64,000 bases of DNA from Streptomyces antibioticus (GTDB lineage: Bacteria; Actinomycetota; Actinomycetes; Streptomycetales; Streptomycetaceae). Positions 56,084 to 63,911 of the stretch are shown here, piece by piece (positions within the stretch are counted from its first letter, which is position 1; each line of letters starts with the position of its first letter). Under the pieces are notes generated by a model. It searched no databases, was not told where the DNA came from, and saw only the letters and a program-made list of their open reading frames with translations. Where the stretch lies: contig NZ_KQ948430.1 of NCBI RefSeq assembly GCF_001514065.1, positions 478,042-542,041 of the forward strand, read 5' to 3'. Made by a program: the position numbers and the translations under genes.

Positions 56084-56944
56084 TCAGGAAGCTTCTCCGA
56101 CCACCGCACGGGCCTTCCGCGCCGCCGGCACCACCAGCGGCGTCCCCGTCTCCGGGTCGTCGATCACCTGACAGCGCAGCCCGAAGACCTCCTCGACCAG
56201 CTCGGCCGTGACGATGTCGCTGGGCGCGCCCTCGGCGATGACGCTGCCGCCCTTGAGGGCGATCAGGTGGGTGGCGTAGCGCGCGGCGTGGTTGAGGTCG
56301 TGCAGGACGGCGACCAGCGTGCGCCCCTGCTCCTCGTGCAGCTCGGCGCACAGGTCGAGGACGTCGATCTGGTGCTGGATGTCCAGATAGGTGGTCGGCT
56401 CGTCGAGGAGCAGCAGCGGCGTCTGCTGGGCGAGCGCCATGGCGATCCAGACGCGCTGCCGCTGACCGCCGGAGAGCTCGTCCACGTAACGGTCGGCGAG
56501 CTCGACGACGCCGGTCTGCGCCATCGACTCCTGGACGACCCGCTCGTCCTCGGTCGACCACTGACGCAGCAGCCCCTGGTGCGGGTACCGGCCGCGGCCC
56601 ACCAGGTCGCCGACCGTGATCCCGTCCGGCGCGATCGACGACTGCGGCAGCAGCCCCAGCGTCCGGGCGACCTTCTTCGCGGGCATCGACTGGATGACCT
56701 GCCCGTCGAGCAGCACCCGGCCCTGAGTCGGCTTCAGCATCCGTGACAGCGCCCGCAGCAGCGTGGACTTGCCGCACGCGTTCGGGCCGACGATCACTGT
56801 GAAGGAGCTGTCGGGGATCTCCACCGACAGCTGCTCGGCGATGACGCGCTGGTCGTAGGCGAGGGTGACGTCCTCGGCGGAGAGGCGGTTCACGGTGCTC
56901 CTTCGGTTGTCCAGGGTGCGGTCGGTACGGCCGGCGGCGGTCAT
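56084..56944 (-). CDS. Iron-siderophore ABC importer ATPase (FecE/FepC type)
   Basis: A 286-residue ATPase. Walker A is GPNACGKSTLL, the Q-loop region LGLLPQSSIAPDGITVGDLVGRGRYPHQ is characteristic of siderophore ATPases, and the signature is ELSGGQRQRVWIA. Walker B is PLLLLDEPTTYLD and the switch VLHDLNHAARYA. The ATG at 56944 overlaps the permease stop (ATGA). GTG 56893 has a closer AAGGAG and is also credible. It should drive uptake of an iron-siderophore with the two upstream permeases. Confidence 0.93.
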   Translation of the reverse strand: MTAAGRTDRTLDNRRSTVNRLSAEDVTLAYDQRVIAEQLSVEIPDSSFTVIVGPNACGKSTLLRALSRMLKPTQGRVLLDGQVIQSMPAKKVARTLGLLPQSSIAPDGITVGDLVGRGRYPHQGLLRQWSTEDERVVQESMAQTGVVELADRYVDELSGGQRQRVWIAMALAQQTPLLLLDEPTTYLDIQHQIDVLDLCAELHEEQGRTLVAVLHDLNHAARYATHLIALKGGSVIAEGAPSDIVTAELVEEVFGLRCQVIDDPETGTPLVVPAARKARAVVGEAS

Positions 56945-58005
56945 ATCCGGCCCGCCTTCCGCTCGGTGACCAGCAGCCACAGCAGATACACGCCGCCGAG
57001 CACGCCGGTGACCACACCCACCGGCATCTGGTCAGCGCCGAACACCTTCTGCGAGAGCAGGTCGGCCATGACCAGGAGGGCCGCGCCCATGCACAGGGAC
57101 GGCAGCAGGTTCGGGCCGGGCGAGCGGGTCAGCCGCCGGGCGAGCTGCGGCGCGGTGAGCGCCACGAAGCCGACCGGCCCCGCGGCGGCGGTCGCGCTCG
57201 CGGTGAGCAGGACGGCGGCCACCATCAACAGCGCCCTGGTGCGCTCGACGCGCACGCCGAGGGCGTTGGACACGTCGTCGCCCATCTCCATCATCCGCAG
57301 CGCCCGCGCGTTGCAGAGGACCAGCGGGACCAGCACGGCGCACAGCCAGAGCAGCGGCCAGACCTGCTCCCAGTCCCGTCCGCTGAGCGAGCCGGTCATC
57401 CAGACGACGGCCTGGGCGGCCTCGGTGATGGTGGACTTGGTCAGCAGATAGCCGTTGACGGCCGTGAGGATCGCGGAGACCCCGATGCCGACCAGCACGA
57501 GCCGGTACCCGTGCACCCCCTGCTTCCAGGCGAGCAGATAGATGGCGAGCCCGGCCCCCAGCCCGCCCACCAGCGCCCCGACGGTGATGTCACCGGCGCT
57601 CCCGGAGAACACCACGATCACGGTGAGGGCCCCGGCCGTCGCCCCCTGCCCGAGCCCGAGGATGTCCGGGCTGCCCAGCGGGTTGCGCGACACGGCCTGG
57701 AACAGCGCCCCGCCAAGCCCGAGGGAGGCCCCGACCAGCAGCCCGACGAGCACCCGCGGCAGCCGCAGCTCGTTGACGATGAACTCCTGCCCCGCGTTCC
57801 CGCCGCCCATCAGCGTCTTGAGCACGTCCCCGGCTGAGATCGGGAAGTCCCCGGTACCGATCAGCACGACGCTCGCGGCGAGCGCGGCGGCCAGCAGCAG
57901 CAGTACGACGACGAGGGCCCGGACGTCGAGCCGGACCGACAGCCCGCCGGGCGTCCGGACGGCACGGTTGGCGCGCGGGGAGCGCTCGGCACGGTTGGTC
58001 TTCAC
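56941..58005 (-). CDS. Iron-siderophore ABC importer permease (FecD type)
   Basis: A 354-residue membrane permease of the BtuC/FecCD family with about 9-10 helices. RLPRVLVGLLVGASLGLGGALFQAVSRNPLGSPDILGLGQGA is the classic segment after the first helix, and EMGDDVSNALGVRVERTR and GPVGFVALTAPQLARRL precede the ATPase-contact loop. GTG 58005 overlaps the first permease stop (GTGA). A Lys/Arg-rich N-terminus of about 28 residues precedes helix 1. Confidence 0.93.
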   Translation of the reverse strand: MKTNRAERSPRANRAVRTPGGLSVRLDVRALVVVLLLLAAALAASVVLIGTGDFPISAGDVLKTLMGGGNAGQEFIVNELRLPRVLVGLLVGASLGLGGALFQAVSRNPLGSPDILGLGQGATAGALTVIVVFSGSAGDITVGALVGGLGAGLAIYLLAWKQGVHGYRLVLVGIGVSAILTAVNGYLLTKSTITEAAQAVVWMTGSLSGRDWEQVWPLLWLCAVLVPLVLCNARALRMMEMGDDVSNALGVRVERTRALLMVAAVLLTASATAAAGPVGFVALTAPQLARRLTRSPGPNLLPSLCMGAALLVMADLLSQKVFGADQMPVGVVTGVLGGVYLLWLLVTERKAGRI

Positions 58006-59045
58006 AGCTGTGCCGTCCTCCGCCGTCGTACGAGAAAGATGAAGACCGGGCCGCCGATGATCGCGGTCACGATGCCGACCTGAAGCTCCGAGGGCCGGGC
58101 GACCACCCGGCCGATGACATCGGCACCGAGCAGCAGCACCGGCGACAGGATCGCCGCGTACGGCAGGATCCAGCGCAGGTCGGGGCCGGTGAAGGAGCGC
58201 ACGACGTGCGGCACCATCAGTCCGACGAACACGATCGGCCCGCAGGCCGCGGTCGCCGCCCCGCACAGCACGACGGCGGCCAGCATCGACAGCGCCCGGG
58301 TCCGGTTGAGGTGGGCGCCGAGGGCCCGCGCGGTGTCGTCGCCCATCTCCATGGCGTTCAGCGGCCGCGCGAGCGCCAGGGCGAGGATCGTGCCGCCCGC
58401 GAGGAACGGCAGGACCTGGAGGATCGTCGACTCGCTCGCCGAGGTCAGCGAACCCACCGTCCAGAAGCGCATCTTGCCGAGCGCAGCCTGGTCCGTGATC
58501 ATCACGGCCTGGAGGTAGCCGTAGAGCGCGGCGCTGATCGCCGTACCGGCGAGCGCGAGCCGCACCGGCGTCGCTCCCCGGCTGCCGCCGAGGAACCAGA
58601 CCAGCGCCCCCACCGCGGCCGCGCCGAAGAACGCGAACCATACGTAGCCACTCAGGCTCGTCACCCCGAAATACGTCATGGCGGTGACGACCGCCGCGGA
58701 CGCGCCCGCGTTGATGCCGAGCAGCCCCGGGTCGGCCAGCGGATTCCGGGTGAGCGCCTGGAGAACGGCCCCGGCGAGGCCGAGCGCGGCCCCGGCCAGC
58801 AGCCCCAGCAGGGTCCGCCACAGCCGCTCGGTCACCACGACGTCGCCGTAGGTCCCCGAGTCCTCGAACAGGCCGTGCCACACCTGCCCCAGCGACAGCT
58901 CTTTCGCCCCGATCGCGATGCTCGCCAAGGCGACGAGCACCAGGATCACGACGGACGCGAGCAACCCGAGCGCGCGTATCGCCCGGCGGGTTGGGGGCGC
59001 GGGGGCGGTTTCCGCGCGCTGTTCGGGAGGACTGTCGACCAACAC
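58002..59045 (-). CDS. Iron-siderophore ABC importer permease (FecC type)
   Basis: A 347-residue permease, the first gene of the siderophore importer operon. LWRTLLGLLAGAALGLAGAVLQALTRNPLADPGLLGINAGAS and EMGDDTARALGAHLNRTR show the BtuC/FecCD pattern. The start is GTG at 59045; the iron box lies 5-23 bases before it, so iron-loaded DmdR1/IdeR-type repressor would block it. No binding-protein gene is present in the operon; a lipoprotein from elsewhere in the genome must serve. Confidence 0.93.
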   Translation of the reverse strand: MLVDSPPEQRAETAPAPPTRRAIRALGLLASVVILVLVALASIAIGAKELSLGQVWHGLFEDSGTYGDVVVTERLWRTLLGLLAGAALGLAGAVLQALTRNPLADPGLLGINAGASAAVVTAMTYFGVTSLSGYVWFAFFGAAAVGALVWFLGGSRGATPVRLALAGTAISAALYGYLQAVMITDQAALGKMRFWTVGSLTSASESTILQVLPFLAGGTILALALARPLNAMEMGDDTARALGAHLNRTRALSMLAAVVLCGAATAACGPIVFVGLMVPHVVRSFTGPDLRWILPYAAILSPVLLLGADVIGRVVARPSELQVGIVTAIIGGPVFIFLVRRRRTAQL

Positions 59046-59126: not shown

Positions 59127-60155
59127 TCAGAGTCCGAGCCGCGCCAGCGCCTTCCCCCCGTCCAGCGCGCACGTCCCGTCCCCCGCCGCCGTCCAGGCCG
59201 CAGCACACAGCGCCCGCAGGCCGTCCAACGCCTCCCCGTCACCGTCCAGTTCCAGCCGCTCATCACCGGCCCTGGCGGTCCACCCGCCGCACCGGAAGCC
59301 GCCGTCCGCCTCGACGACCTCGGGCTGCCCGGTCAGCAACCCCCGCAGATCGGCGTCGACATACGTCGGCCGGTGCTGCGGCGGCGCGGCCAGCAGCTGC
59401 GGCCCGTCCGTCACGCCGGTCAGCACGAGCAGCGAGTCGACCTCCCCGTTGAACGCGCCCTCGATGTCCGTGTCCAGCCGGTCCCCCACCACCAGCGGCC
59501 GTACGGCACCGGTCCGCAGGATCGTCTCCCGGTGCATCGGAGGCAGCGGCTTCCCCGCGACCTGCGGCTCGGCGCCGGTCGTGATCCGCACGACCTCCAC
59601 CGCGGCCCCGTTGCCCGGCGCGATCCCCCGCCCGCTCGGGATCGTCAGGTCGGTGTTGGACGCGAACCAGGGCACTCCGCGCGCGACGGCGTAAGAAGCC
59701 TCGGCGAACCGCCCCCACGGCAGGTCGGGCCCACCGAACCCCTGCACCACGGCCGCCGGATCGTCGTCCGCCGACTCCACCGGCACGAGCCCCCGCTCCC
59801 GCAACGCGACCCGCAGCCCCTCACCGCCGATCACAAGGACTCTGGAACCAGCCGGCACCTGCTCACTGATCAGCCGCGCGACGGCCTGGGCGGACGTGAT
59901 CACGTCATCGGCCCCGGTCGGTATCCCCAGCTCGGTCAGATGCTCCGCCACCGCATCGGGCGTCCGCAGCGCGTTGTTGGTGACGTAGGCGAGGTGCATC
60001 CCACCGGACCGAGCCGTGGCGAGCGACTCGACCGCGTGCACGATCGCGTTCCCGCCCGCGTACACCACCCCGTCGAGGTCGAGCAGCGCGGTGTCGTACG
60101 CCTCGCTCAGGGCCTGGCCACTGCCCTCGGGCCTCGTCCTGACGCTCTGGCTCAT
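59127..60155 (-). CDS. HAD superfamily phosphatase, NagD/class IIA type
   Basis: A 342-residue cytoplasmic phosphatase. Motif I is LLDLDGVVYAGG at about residue 25, motif II is in YVTNNALRTP, motif III Lys is in GKPLPPMHRET, and VVGDRLDTDIEGAFNGEVDSLLVLTG is the C-terminal motif III/IV region of class IIA HADs. A likely family substrate is a phosphorylated sugar or pyridoxal phosphate. The ATG at 60155 has GAGGAG about 9 bases upstream. It is divergent from DUF1015 with an ordinary gap and unrelated to the iron operon. Confidence 0.85.
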   Translation of the reverse strand: MSQSVRTRPEGSGQALSEAYDTALLDLDGVVYAGGNAIVHAVESLATARSGGMHLAYVTNNALRTPDAVAEHLTELGIPTGADDVITSAQAVARLISEQVPAGSRVLVIGGEGLRVALRERGLVPVESADDDPAAVVQGFGGPDLPWGRFAEASYAVARGVPWFASNTDLTIPSGRGIAPGNGAAVEVVRITTGAEPQVAGKPLPPMHRETILRTGAVRPLVVGDRLDTDIEGAFNGEVDSLLVLTGVTDGPQLLAAPPQHRPTYVDADLRGLLTGQPEVVEADGGFRCGGWTARAGDERLELDGDGEALDGLRALCAAAWTAAGDGTCALDGGKALARLGL

Positions 60156-60227
60156 TCCACATCGCTCCTCGCTCGACGGCTTTCCCCCGATCATCTCGCA
60201 CGCCACTGACACACGTACGATGCCGGG

Positions 60228-61520
60228 ATGAACACCGCAGGTCACTCGGAAGCAACGGCGCGCCGGGGCCTGGAACTCACCCCGTTCCGAGGCCTCCGCT
60301 ACGACCCCGACCGGGTCGGCAGCCTGGCCGCCGTGACATCACCGCCGTACGACGTCGTCGTACGCCCCGACGGCCTGTACCACCTGCAGTCCAACGACCC
60401 GCACAACATCGTCCGCCTGATCCTCCCCCAGGCCACCACCCCCGCCGCCCGCAACGAACAGGCCGCCGCGACCCTGCGCCGCTGGCTCGCCGAAGGCGTC
60501 CTCGCCGCCGACCCGGTGCCGGGCCTGTACGTGTACGAGCAGCGCGACGGCGCCGGCATGCTGCAACGCGGCATCATCGGCGCCCTGCGCGTCTCGGACC
60601 CCGCGGACCAGGTGGTCCTGCCCCACGAGGACGTCATGCCGCACGTCGTCGCCGACCGCGCGGCCCTCATGCGCGCCACCTCCGCGAACCTGGAGCCCCT
60701 GCTCCTGACGTACCGAGGCAACGGCACCGCCAACGACACCACGGCCGTGGTCGAACGTACGGCCGAACAGGAGCCGCTCCTCTCCACCACCACCGAGGAC
60801 GGCTACAGCCACCGCCTGTGGTCCATCACCGACCCGGCGGACCTGGACCGCATCCAGTCCGACCTGGCCAGGCACCAGGCCCTCATCGCCGACGGCCACC
60901 ACCGCTGGGCGACCTACCGCCGCCTCCGCGCGGAGCACCCCTCCCCCAGCCCCTGGGACTACGGCCTGGTCCTCCTGGTCGACACGGCCCGCTACCCCCT
61001 CCGCGTCCGCGCCATCCACCGCCTCCTGCACGGCCTGCCGGTGACGGACGCCCTGGCCTCGCTCGACGGCCGGTTCCGCGTCCGACGCCTGGAGAGCCCG
61101 CTCCCCGAAGCCCTGGAGGCACTCGCCGACGCCGCCTGCGCGGGCAACGCCTTCCTCCTCGCCGGCGACGGCGCCTTCCACCTCGTCGACCGCCCGGACC
61201 CGGGCCTCCTCGCCCGTACGATCCCCGCCGACCGCCCGGCGGCCTGGCGCACCCTGGACGCGACCGTCCTGCACGCCACGCTCCTCCAGCACGTCTGGCA
61301 CATCCCCGAGAACGACCCCACCCGCATCGCCTACATCCACGACACCGCCGCCACCGTCCGCAAGGCGGAACGCGACGGCGGCACGGCCGTCCTCATGCAC
61401 CCGGTCCGCGAGGAGGTCGTCCGCGACCTGGCCCGCCAGGGCGTCACGATGCCCCGCAAGTCGACGTCCTTCGGCCCGAAACCGGCCTCCGGCCTGGTCC
61501 TGCGCGCGCTGGAAACGTGA
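60228..61520 (+). CDS. DUF1015 family protein
   Basis: A 430-residue cytoplasmic protein. Family landmarks are LTPFRGLRYDPDRVGSLAAVTSPPYDVV near the start, LYVYEQ, VLPHEDVMPHVVADRAALMRATSANLEPLLLTY, and LIADGHHRWATYRRLR. The conserved function is unknown, although some relatives act in serine metabolism. TACGAT ends 6 bases before the ATG and there is no ribosome binding site, so the message may be leaderless. A strong terminator follows. Confidence 0.85.
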   Translation: MNTAGHSEATARRGLELTPFRGLRYDPDRVGSLAAVTSPPYDVVVRPDGLYHLQSNDPHNIVRLILPQATTPAARNEQAAATLRRWLAEGVLAADPVPGLYVYEQRDGAGMLQRGIIGALRVSDPADQVVLPHEDVMPHVVADRAALMRATSANLEPLLLTYRGNGTANDTTAVVERTAEQEPLLSTTTEDGYSHRLWSITDPADLDRIQSDLARHQALIADGHHRWATYRRLRAEHPSPSPWDYGLVLLVDTARYPLRVRAIHRLLHGLPVTDALASLDGRFRVRRLESPLPEALEALADAACAGNAFLLAGDGAFHLVDRPDPGLLARTIPADRPAAWRTLDATVLHATLLQHVWHIPENDPTRIAYIHDTAATVRKAERDGGTAVLMHPVREEVVRDLARQGVTMPRKSTSFGPKPASGLVLRALET

Positions 61521-61525
61521 ACATG

Positions 61526-61565
61526 CGAAAGGGCGGGACCCCGATGCCGGGGTCCCGCCCTTTCG
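61526..61565. terminator. Perfect 17-bp bidirectional terminator hairpin
   Basis: CGAAAGGGCGGGACCCC (61526-61542) pairs with GGGGTCCCGCCCTTTCG (61549-61565) around GATGCC, 5 bases after the DUF1015 stop and 10 bases after the minus-strand stop at 61576. Confidence 0.88.
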
Positions 61566-61575
61566 TGTGTGTAGG

Positions 61576-63699
61576 TCAGTCCTTGTCGTCGTTCTTCGAG
61601 GACACGTCTACGTCGTCCTCGTCGTCCTCCGCCTCTACGGCCTCGACGACCTCGACGTCACCGCCGCTCTCGGCCTGGCTGTCACCCTCGGCCTGGTCAG
61701 CGCCGTCGTCGATCCCGCCGTCGATCTCGCCTTCGTTCTCGCCTTCGTTCTCGTCGAAGGCGTCGACGAACTCGACACCGTCCAGCTCGGCGAGCCGGTC
61801 CGAGGCGTCCGTGCTGCCGTCCTTGTCGGCCTCGACGGCCTTGGCGAACCACTCCCGCGCCTCGCCCTCACGCTCGGCGGCGAGCAGCGCGTCGGCGTAG
61901 GCGTACCGCAGACGCGCGGTCCACGGCTGCACCGAGTTGGAGGCCAGCTCGGGGCTCTGCAGCGTCACGATGGCCGCGTCCAGCTGCCCCATGTCACGCC
62001 GGGCGCCGGCCGCGACGAGCCGCATCTCGACCTGACCGGCCTTGTCCAGCTTGTTGACCTCGGGGGCCCCGGCCATGTCCAGGGCCTTCTCCGGCCGCCC
62101 GAGCCCACGCTCGCAGTCGGCCATGACGGGCCACAGCTCCGCGCTGCCCGTCATCCGCCGCGCGGCCCGGAACTCGGCGAGCGCCTCGGAGTACTTCTGG
62201 TTCGCGTACGCCGCGAACCCGGCCGCCTCCCGTACGGCGGCGACACGCGACGCGAGCCGCAGCGCGATCTTGGAGTAGGCGTAGGCGCGCTCAGGGTCCT
62301 CGTCGATGAGCCGGGCGACCATCACCAGGTTCTTCGCCACGTCCTCCGCGAGCGTCTTCGGCAGGCTCAGCAGCTCCTGGCGTACGTCGCCATCGATCTC
62401 GTCGCCCGTGACGTCCTCGGGGATCGGCAGCCGCTTGATCGGCTCACGGTCCCTGTCCCGGTCCCGGTCGTCCCGCCCACGGAAGCCGCCGCGCCGGTCG
62501 TCACGGCCGTAGCCGCCACGGTTGTCATCACGCCGGTCGTCCCGCCCACGGAACCCGCCGGGCCGCCCACCGCGGTCGTCGCGCCGGGGGCCGCTGCGGA
62601 AGCCACGGTCGTCCCGCCCACGGAAGCCGCCCCGGTCGTCGCGACGCTCGTAGGAGCCGCCGCCCCGGTTGTCACCACGGCTGTCACCGCGGTTGTCGTC
62701 GCGCCGGAACCCACCGCGGTCCCCGCGGTCATCGCCGCGTCGGTCGTCACGGCGGTCGTCACGTCGGCCGTAACCGCCGCCGCCCCGGTTGTCGTCCCGG
62801 CGGAAGCCGCCGCGATCTCCGCGATCCCCGCGGTCGCCCCGGTCATCGCGCCGGAAGCCACCACGGTCGCCTCGGTCGTCACCACGGAATCCGCGGTCAC
62901 GGTCCCGGTCGTCGCGGCCACGGAAGCCGCCCCGGTCGTCGCGACGCTCGTAGGAGCCGCCGCCCCGGTTGTCACCACGGCTGTCACCGCGGTTGTCGTC
63001 GCGCCGGAACCCACCGCGGTCGCCACGGTCATCGCCGCGTCGGTCGTCACGGCGGTCGTCACGTCGGCCGTAACCGCCGCCGCGGTTGTCGCCACGGCTG
63101 TCGTCACGCCGGAACGCCGGACGGGGGCCGCGGTCGTCGTCGCGGCGCTCTCCCCGGTCCCGGTCGTCACGGCGGAAGGCGGGCCGGTCACGGTCGCCGT
63201 CACGGCGGAAGCCGCGGTCCCGGTCGTCCCGACGCGGGCCGCTCGGATCGTCCCGCCGGAACGCCGGGCGGGGCCCACGGTCGTCTCCGCGCCGGTCATC
63301 GCGTCGGTCGTCGCGCCGGCCGTAGCCACCGCCACCGCCCCGGTTGTCGCCACGGTTGTCATCGCGTCGGAAGCCACCGCGGTTGTCACCACGGCTGTCG
63401 TCACGCCGGAAGCCACCGCGGTCGCCACGGTCATCGCCTCGACGGTCGTCACGGCGGTCGTCGCGCCGGCCGTAGCCACCGCCACCGCCCCGGTTGTCGC
63501 CACGGCTGTCGTCGCGCCGGCCGTAGCCGCCACGGTCCCCGCCGCGGTCACTGCTTCGGTCGTTGTCGCGCCGGAAGCCACCACGGTCACCGCGGTCGCC
63601 GCCGCGGTATCCGCCACGGTCACCGCGATCGCCGCGGTCACCGCTGTCCCGTCGCCGCTGGTCGCGCTCCGGTCGGTCGTCGGGAGAGTTGGTGGACAT
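61576..63699 (-). CDS. RG/RD-rich intrinsically disordered protein with C-terminal TPR-like domain
   Basis: A 707-residue protein. Residues 1 to about 430 are almost wholly Arg, Asp and Gly with some Asn and Phe, built from units such as GGFRRDDNRGDRGG and GGYGRRDDRRDDRRGDD. From about 430 (EPIKRLPIPEDVTGDEIDGDV) to about 640 a helical TPR-like domain follows (LASRVAAVREAAGFAAYANQ, ALAEFRAARRMTGSAELWPV, LRYAYADALLAAEREGEAREWF). An acidic tail of about 60 residues ends DVSSKNDDKD. It resembles RGG-box RNA-binding and phase-separating proteins. The ATG at 63699 has AGGAG 7 bases upstream. Start lies 93 bases after the 5S gene on the same strand. Confidence 0.82.
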   Translation of the reverse strand: MSTNSPDDRPERDQRRRDSGDRGDRGDRGGYRGGDRGDRGGFRRDNDRSSDRGGDRGGYGRRDDSRGDNRGGGGGYGRRDDRRDDRRGDDRGDRGGFRRDDSRGDNRGGFRRDDNRGDNRGGGGGYGRRDDRRDDRRGDDRGPRPAFRRDDPSGPRRDDRDRGFRRDGDRDRPAFRRDDRDRGERRDDDRGPRPAFRRDDSRGDNRGGGYGRRDDRRDDRRGDDRGDRGGFRRDDNRGDSRGDNRGGGSYERRDDRGGFRGRDDRDRDRGFRGDDRGDRGGFRRDDRGDRGDRGDRGGFRRDDNRGGGGYGRRDDRRDDRRGDDRGDRGGFRRDDNRGDSRGDNRGGGSYERRDDRGGFRGRDDRGFRSGPRRDDRGGRPGGFRGRDDRRDDNRGGYGRDDRRGGFRGRDDRDRDRDREPIKRLPIPEDVTGDEIDGDVRQELLSLPKTLAEDVAKNLVMVARLIDEDPERAYAYSKIALRLASRVAAVREAAGFAAYANQKYSEALAEFRAARRMTGSAELWPVMADCERGLGRPEKALDMAGAPEVNKLDKAGQVEMRLVAAGARRDMGQLDAAIVTLQSPELASNSVQPWTARLRYAYADALLAAEREGEAREWFAKAVEADKDGSTDASDRLAELDGVEFVDAFDENEGENEGEIDGGIDDGADQAEGDSQAESGGDVEVVEAVEAEDDEDDVDVSSKNDDKD
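62630..63083 (-). repeat. Direct repeats in the RG/RD-rich gene
   Basis: Bases 62630-62783 recur at 62930-63083, exactly 300 bp away, with about 2-3 mismatches over some 150 bp. A further about 80-bp similarity with a 150-bp offset links 63311-63350 and 63461-63500. All offsets are multiples of three. Confidence 0.85.
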
Positions 63700-63740
63700 G
63701 GGTGACTCCTGTCTCGGTACTGCAAGCATTGTAAAAACAA

Positions 63741-63783
63741 AAGGACCCCTGGTCCCAGCTGAACGCTGGGACCAGGGGTCCTT
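63741..63783 (-). terminator. rRNA operon terminator with U-tract
   Basis: AAGGACCCCTGGTCCCAGC (63741-63759) pairs perfectly with GCTGGGACCAGGGGTCCTT (63765-63783), a 19-bp stem with a 5-base loop. On the minus strand it is followed by TTTTGTTTTT, so it is a classic intrinsic terminator for the rRNA operon, 9 bases after the 5S. Confidence 0.9.
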
Positions 63784-63792
63784 CCAAAGATT

Positions 63793-63911
63793 GTTCGGCG
63801 GCGTCCTACTCTCCCACAGGGTCCCCCCTGCAGTACCATCGGCGCTGTAAGGCTTAGCTTCCGGGTTCGGAATGTAACCGGGCGTTTCCCTCACGCTATG
63901 ACCACCGAAAC
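63793..63911 (-). rRNA. rrf: 5S ribosomal RNA
   Basis: The minus strand starts GTTTCGGTGGTCATAGCG and includes CCCGGTTACATTCCGAACCCGG and GGAAGCTAAGCC, then GGGAGAGTAGG and ends CGCCGCCGAAC. This is a complete actinobacterial 5S rRNA of about 119 bases, with complementary ends forming helix I. It is the 3' end of an rRNA operon whose other genes lie beyond the right edge. Confidence 0.95.

Follow-up and report, generated by a model that had tools for sequence, protein, structure and literature searches.

RGG/RG-rich proteins are eukaryotic RNA binders with Arg/Gly-rich regions, and in bacteria the ribonucleoprotein bodies based on RNase E gather RNA through a disordered charged region. The product of tlyA, TlyA, is an rRNA methyltransferase. 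Among actinobacterial TPR proteins, the presumed counterparts of the protein considered here are Rv1691 and MSMEG_3754, the latter being given as the Rv1691 orthologue in the published excerpts at hand (PMC7092591). According to such excerpts, Rv1691 is a TPR-repeat-containing protein of the lprJ-recN operon (PMC3072309), MSMEG_3754 comes from a high-confidence list of 214 proteins obtained in an anti-RNAP beta pull-down, with the ribosome as the most enriched cellular-component term, FLAG-MSMEG_3754 showed no association with DNA (PMC7092591), and MSMEG_3754/Rv1691 stands in a ClpC1 interactome table (PMC10433963). In mycobacteria with two operons, the excerpted text places rrnB downstream of tyrS (PMC10218544). 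A search of the open-access literature located no function for the RG-rich TPR protein, no paper on its arginine-rich arm or on a phylum-wide position behind rrn, and nothing relevant on a TPR protein linked to rrn, on RGG proteins of actinobacteria or on a TPR protein associated with Streptomyces ribosomes.

The gene described below was found in the window, i.e. the whole stretch of 64,000 nucleotides of Streptomyces antibioticus DNA that was analysed. Its slot is that of the mycobacterial rrnB downstream of tyrS (PMC10218544), and the published order of HAD phosphatase, tlyA, nadK and recN, as far as the excerpts give it, matches the neighbourhood of its relatives. Judged by highly significant, class-wide matches to the core and by synteny, rather than by direct comparison with the named mycobacterial sequences, the RG-rich protein probably belongs with the Rv1691/MSMEG_3754-type TPR family. 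In the genus that we take to be the mycobacteria (g8), the arms are short, with 43 aa (L192) and 62 aa (L188) in the two usable loci against 417 aa in the window, so that the pull-down result for MSMEG_3754 may not extend to the long arm. The likeness to eukaryotic RGG/RG-rich RNA-binding proteins consists in an Arg/Gly-rich region with spaced aromatics; unlike them, the window protein has about as much Asp as Gly and a TPR core, and no RNA-recognition domain was found in it. With the RNase E bodies it shares a disordered charged region in a bacterial protein, but no nuclease domain was found in it by Pfam scan, its gene is linked to rrn and its condensation would be a prediction.

Protein and locus in Streptomyces antibioticus

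An earlier note, made from the letters of the window, had described an RG/RD-rich arm followed by a TPR-like domain and an acidic tail, an order that is borne out by the 707-aa open reading frame and its composition. The arm had been put at about 430 residues of Arg, Asp, Gly, Asn and Phe; the composition stands, while the length is 417 residues. The 5S gene was correctly seen to end 93 nt upstream of the ATG, both genes lying on the minus strand. The features of the locus are as follows.

61576–63699, minus strand: coding sequence of the RG-rich TPR protein, 707 aa (open reading frame and translation; the start MSTNSPDDRPER recurs in Streptomyces)
62449–63699, minus strand: N-terminal R/D/G-rich disordered arm, residues 1–417 (composition, charge-hydropathy, codon differences among repeats, model pLDDT)
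61762–62448, minus strand: TPR-like helical core, residues 418–646, 229 aa (profile matches, all-helical model, Foldseek)
61579–61761, minus strand: acidic tail, residues 647–707, 61 aa (27 D/E, 2 R/K; differs among relatives)
63793–63909, minus strand: 5S rRNA, final gene of an rrn operon severed by the contig end (Rfam RF00001, 104.4 bits)
63741–63783, minus strand: terminator-like hairpin with 19-nt arms and a 5-nt loop, followed by TTGTTTTT (sequence; identical sequence measured in L118; aligned in 60 Streptomyces leaders)
63728–63733, minus strand: TACAAT, weak candidate -10 element (sequence)
63706–63710, minus strand: AGGAG, probable ribosome-binding site (sequence; kept in the Streptomyces leader alignment)
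61531–61560, no strand assigned: hairpin in the gap that parts the RG-rich gene from its convergent DUF1015 neighbour, a terminator that both probably use (sequence, by eye)
60228–61520, plus strand: convergent DUF1015 gene (PF06245, E 8.7e-77)
59127–60161 as scanned, open frame beginning at 60245, minus strand: HAD-IIA-type phosphatase gene, the next gene on the same strand (PF13344, PF13242, PF18407)
58002–59045, minus strand: FecCD-type permease gene, after the HAD gene (PF01032)

The contig terminates at the window end, and the 16S and 23S genes of this operon lie outside the view; those of the equivalent operon are visible in relatives, and the draft genome of the window has a single 5S match. 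The next frame past the FecCD-type permease gene is found at 56941–58881.

The window arm contains 136 R, 107 D, 100 G, 17 F and 13 N, with 55 RG and 22 RGG, and is thus a predicted disordered region rich in RG/RGG; with Asp as prominent as Gly, the term R/D/G polyampholyte describes it better than that of a classic RGG box. Together R, D and G make up 82.3% of it; 1000 base-shuffled copies averaged 37.8% and never exceeded 44.1%, and a chance composition was rejected on this basis. In a single-sequence model of the whole protein the pLDDT stayed below 50 across residues 1–434, lending weak support to disorder, and among the relatives a charge-hydropathy plot classed as disordered all 65 of the 65 tested arms of at least 40 aa, and none of their cores. 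All 66 arms of at least 40 aa have a positive net charge (+0.026 to +0.217 per residue) and more Arg than Lys, with medians of 22% R, 0.7% K (at most 10.8%), 20% G and 2.3% aliphatic residues. With starts picked by rule, arm length ranges from about 24 to 700 aa. Tandem repeats are present, and their motif varies by family, being RRDDRRDDRRGDDRG in the window and SGRPSSGRPS, PYEKRDGDKRPYEKRDG, QRRDGDRPSGGY, GGKPADTRGG and RPRRSADGSAPRPRRSSDDGD in other families, while the make-up remains similar. The arm is conserved by composition, not by sequence.

The repeats of the window arm differ from one another by 1438 synonymous and 396 non-synonymous codon differences, i.e. 78% synonymous against a neutral expectation of 24%, whereas the other two frames (245/1666 and 333/1604) have no synonymous excess; these counts come from overlapping, non-independent pairs of similar 14-codon stretches and single-step changes, and are descriptive. 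Neutral repeats were rejected on these grounds. Arm length and tail acidity are correlated (Spearman 0.50, 59 loci, uncorrected for kinship), 26 tails having at least 10 net acidic residues and 24 having two or fewer. The reading frame leading into the core of L108 starts out with non-RG sequence, and this points to a frame break in that assembly.

The best Pfam match of the window core was TPR_19 with 21.9 bits, below the cut-off of 25, and no TPR family profile exceeded its cut-off for the window protein; the relative in L167 reached the cut-off of TPR_14 (23.5 bits). No NCBIfam family covers the window protein. An AlphaFold model of the core, built with 48 aligned Streptomyces relatives, is all-helical (mean pLDDT 68.2, pTM 0.48), and the predicted repeat fold would be shared with generic TPR proteins such as SycD, MamA, YrrB and designed TPRs. 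A profile search of solved structures (PDB) gave two chains of the chloroplast FLU protein, itself a TPR protein (best E 0.0045). Foldseek hits to the core model were mainly TPR proteins, and all of them had E values above 0.001; with that and a mean pLDDT of 68, no specific TPR relative is singled out. The core thus appears to resemble TPR proteins in general, and is named TPR-like since model confidence is moderate.

Distribution in Actinomycetota and position behind rrn

Searches were confined to Actinomycetota. Of 41 genomes of close relatives, the window's own included, 38 gave a match to the core, and at least 548 relatives from named genomes were confirmed, of which the best 80, all Streptomyces, were retained. 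A six-sequence profile detected it in 278 of 296 Actinomycetia genomes, with 98 of 105 genera represented, mostly as a single match; besides G060, two matches each were seen in G070, G127, G136, G245 and G294. In a phylum sample it was found in 128 of 296 genomes (88 of 192 genera), 35 of them within the class and 93 outside, the weakest matches (E about 1e-8 to 1e-3) being possibly other TPR proteins; 168 genomes had no core match, through absence or divergence. It is clear that the RG-rich TPR protein is not a Streptomyces oddity, and that its conservation is wider than could be known from the window. Every one of the 18 class genomes that lack a core match retains tlyA; a coupling of core match loss to tlyA loss was accordingly rejected, and retention of TlyA does not need the RG-rich protein. 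In several of these drafts tlyA lies near a contig start, and the missing gene may reflect an assembly break; the core is also missing from three single-contig genomes (G146, G174 and G244).

From the listed matches in the class (a part of the 278) and in the phylum sample, 69 loci of 68 genomes and 35 families were drawn, selected non-randomly for few contigs and family spread, G060 supplying two of them. In all 69 the core match lies in one reading frame. Starts were assigned by rule, with errors in L186, L193 and L177 among others, so that gaps and arm lengths are approximate.

The earlier note had proposed that composition and position be compared across Streptomyces, and both turn out to be conserved there and widely in the phylum, so that the lack of conservation named as one half of the note's refuting condition is clearly not what is seen. 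Among the best 80 Streptomyces relatives, 5S lies upstream on the same strand in 50 of the 50 informative loci, i.e. those that had a recognised start pattern and 250 nt or more of DNA before it, the others lying near a contig break or deviating from the pattern. The gap to the 5S gene in 55 Streptomyces loci is 85–172 nt (median 126 nt), with arms of 201–513 aa. Across the 35 sampled families, 5S is found on the same strand, at most 400 nt upstream of the rule-picked start, in 53 of 62 informative loci (the 69 minus seven that end at a contig break) and in 29 of 35 families. Of the remaining nine, five have 5S at 667–4904 nt, and four (L186, L213, L216 and L221) keep the gene and its arm without rRNA in the stretch examined; thus the rrn position is not essential. 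Outside the class, nine of 13 loci are adjacent to 5S, one lies farther from it and three are without it. Rfam confirmed 5S in 9 of 9 loci, L113–L121, two of them cut by the contig end, and a complete 23S gene in the six that reach it.

As for neighbours, a tblastn search using marker proteins detected HAD in 51, tlyA in 50, nadK in 49, recN in 42, tyrS in 24 and mpg in 11 of the 69 loci, in stretches of unequal length, many too short to reach the markers; the window was tested for HAD only. In the 55 loci with 8 kb downstream and no contig break, 46 are adjacent to rrn, 37 with and 9 without tlyA/nadK/recN, and 9 are not adjacent, 5 with and 4 without these genes. From these counts, the RG-rich gene tends to keep both rrn and tlyA/nadK/recN, and can persist without either. 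In G060 (L190 and L191) a stretch of 6,678 columns is present twice with 99.2% identity, running from about 0.4 kb before 16S to about eight codons before the stop of the RG-rich gene; tyrS lies upstream of one copy, and HAD, tlyA, nadK and recN lie downstream of the other. Since the duplication spans both rrn and the RG-rich gene, the gene travels with rrn in G060.

Candidate roles of the RG-rich TPR protein

Arm composition, synteny with rrn and tlyA and the co-purification of MSMEG_3754 with RNA polymerase in the excerpted study indirectly suggest a possible link to RNA or ribosomes. We tentatively favour, at somewhat less than even chances, a conserved actinobacterial RNA-associated adaptor acting near nascent rRNA and its synthesis or near ribosomes, with RNA binding as a prediction. 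In such a protein the arm would bind RNA by many weak contacts of arginine and aromatic residues, its target most likely being nascent pre-rRNA, ribosomal particles or their polymerase; the TPR core may dock a protein partner, either an assembly or modification factor or the adjoining HAD phosphatase; the acidic tail, where present, may tune the charge of the arm; and a location behind rrn may favour expression that is local or matched to growth. Condensation of the arm protein is a predicted possibility. Several observations weigh against the adaptor. As excerpted, the pull-down was unspecific, given its 214 proteins, and the tagged protein was not associated with DNA (PMC7092591). More than half of the phylum-sample genomes (168/296) have no core match, 9 of 62 informative loci have the gene elsewhere than directly after rrn, the synteny may be inherited without functional meaning, TlyA is kept in the 18 coreless class genomes, and some loci have the core joined to the HAD phosphatase in one frame or followed by it at a short distance.

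The last of these observations is the starting point of the main rival, in which the core partners or regulates the adjoining HAD phosphatase of the Rv1692 type, the arm directs the enzyme to RNA, ribosomes or an anionic membrane or maintains its solubility, and the location at rrn reflects nothing more than inherited order. Where a separate HAD gene lies downstream on the same strand, it starts at most 60 nt past the stop of the RG-rich gene in 17 of 46 loci, and in two loci of one genus, L193 (G150) and L167 (G160), core and HAD form one open frame, as confirmed by Pfam:

L193:8178–10022, minus strand: fused core-HAD frame (Pfam)
L167:247–2226, minus strand: fused core-HAD frame (Pfam)

The arm is very short in both. 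G239 is a third genome of this genus with a core match. Rv1692 itself is described, in the excerpts of two papers, as a glycerol-3-phosphate phosphatase (PMC12722247, PMC8202295). Against a partnership, the HAD gene of the window lies about 1.3–1.4 kb away behind the convergent gene, and that of L117 and L118 about 1.45 kb away; 18 of 69 loci have no HAD match in the DNA examined and four have HAD on the other strand. A phosphatase partner would also leave the preference for Arg over Lys and the throughout-positive charge of the arm unexplained. We consider this reading unlikely. The HAD neighbour and the core-HAD fusion point to a possible second role, beyond what the earlier note had in view.

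Equal in odds, and hence likewise improbable, is a general RNA-binding or RNA-granule protein, active in mRNA decay, storage or stress and having no special tie to rRNA, the gene then having come to lie behind rrn by an ancestral accident, which the block has preserved because it rearranges slowly. The composition of the arm would fit generic RNA binding, the whole block rather than the RG-rich gene alone is conserved, and the gene with its arm persists in the four loci without rRNA in the stretch examined. Such an accident is harder to reconcile with the nine of 55 loci (one being the duplicate L190) that stay behind rrn without tlyA, nadK or recN found downstream, and with the 6.7-kb stretch of rrn and RG-rich gene that G060 carries twice.

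The favoured adaptor may also be extended to a nucleolus-like organiser, a scaffold whose disordered arm would bind nascent pre-rRNA at sites of rrn transcription while the TPR-like core gathers modification and assembly factors, and which would be old, widespread in the phylum and overlooked as its arm evolves by composition instead of sequence. This bolder version is unlikely.

That the gene is expressed by read-through from rrn, the dose of protein tracking rRNA synthesis, had been suggested in the earlier note and would agree with the same-strand adjacency and the short median gap in Streptomyces. It was not supported as the main route, and we regard it as quite improbable. In 52 of 56 loci the 75 nt that follow 5S contain a hairpin scoring at least 8, the gene is kept in the four of 62 informative loci without rRNA in the stretch examined, and TA[AT]CCT, which appears promoter-like from its sequence, precedes the start in five of six genomes of the presumed mycobacterial genus, two of the five being without 5S upstream. 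It lies 6–7 nt before a GTG start in G042, G178, G108 and G095, stands at a greater distance from the start in G169, and was not seen in G081; G108 has no rRNA within 8 kb upstream and G095 no 5S within 1.5 kb. Since the gene is kept without rrn and the element occurs without 5S, read-through from rrn is not needed. In Streptomyces leaders TACAAT was found in 14 of 60 and TANAAT in 15 of 60, and phylum-wide TANNNT stands 5–9 nt before the start in 5 of 67 loci, against 2.4 expected.

Further elements were observed in the leaders. In 38 distinct Streptomyces leaders (e.g. L077:285–336) a dyad like GCGCGTCGG-NNNN-CCGACTGCGC precedes a GAGAATGACTGCGGTACC-like block, which in turn lies ahead of the start; no GCGCGTCGG/CCGACTGCGC dyad is present in the leader of the window gene. 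When the dyad was evaluated as RNA structure in the 38 leaders, 88.9% of cells were paired as compared with 88.1% in shuffles. In five loci of one family (L171, L172, L175, L177 and L204), DNA close to GTGGCAGCGCTTTTGACTGTTTACGGACGG stands just before ATGACTGA; as it is in frame with the ATG in L172 and L177 only (2/5), it looks like a conserved leader element, and it is retained in L172 although 5S is 4.9 kb away.

Finally, the reading of the arm as functionless GC-rich repeat drift, for which its variable length and tandem repeats could be cited, is highly improbable and was already disfavoured, since synonymous differences dominate among the repeat copies of the window and unrelated motifs give a similar composition and the same charge sign across families.

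Biological meaning

The RG-rich TPR protein is found in most sampled Actinomycetia genomes, yet no function was located for it. Its rRNA-linked position, together with a eukaryote-like arginine-rich arm, makes it a clear, testable case for a disordered adaptor associated with rRNA or ribosomes in bacteria. If the adaptor reading is true, the gene would allow one to ask by genetics whether dedicated scaffolds organise rRNA synthesis in bacteria, and the arm would be an example of selection acting on composition across a very long time.
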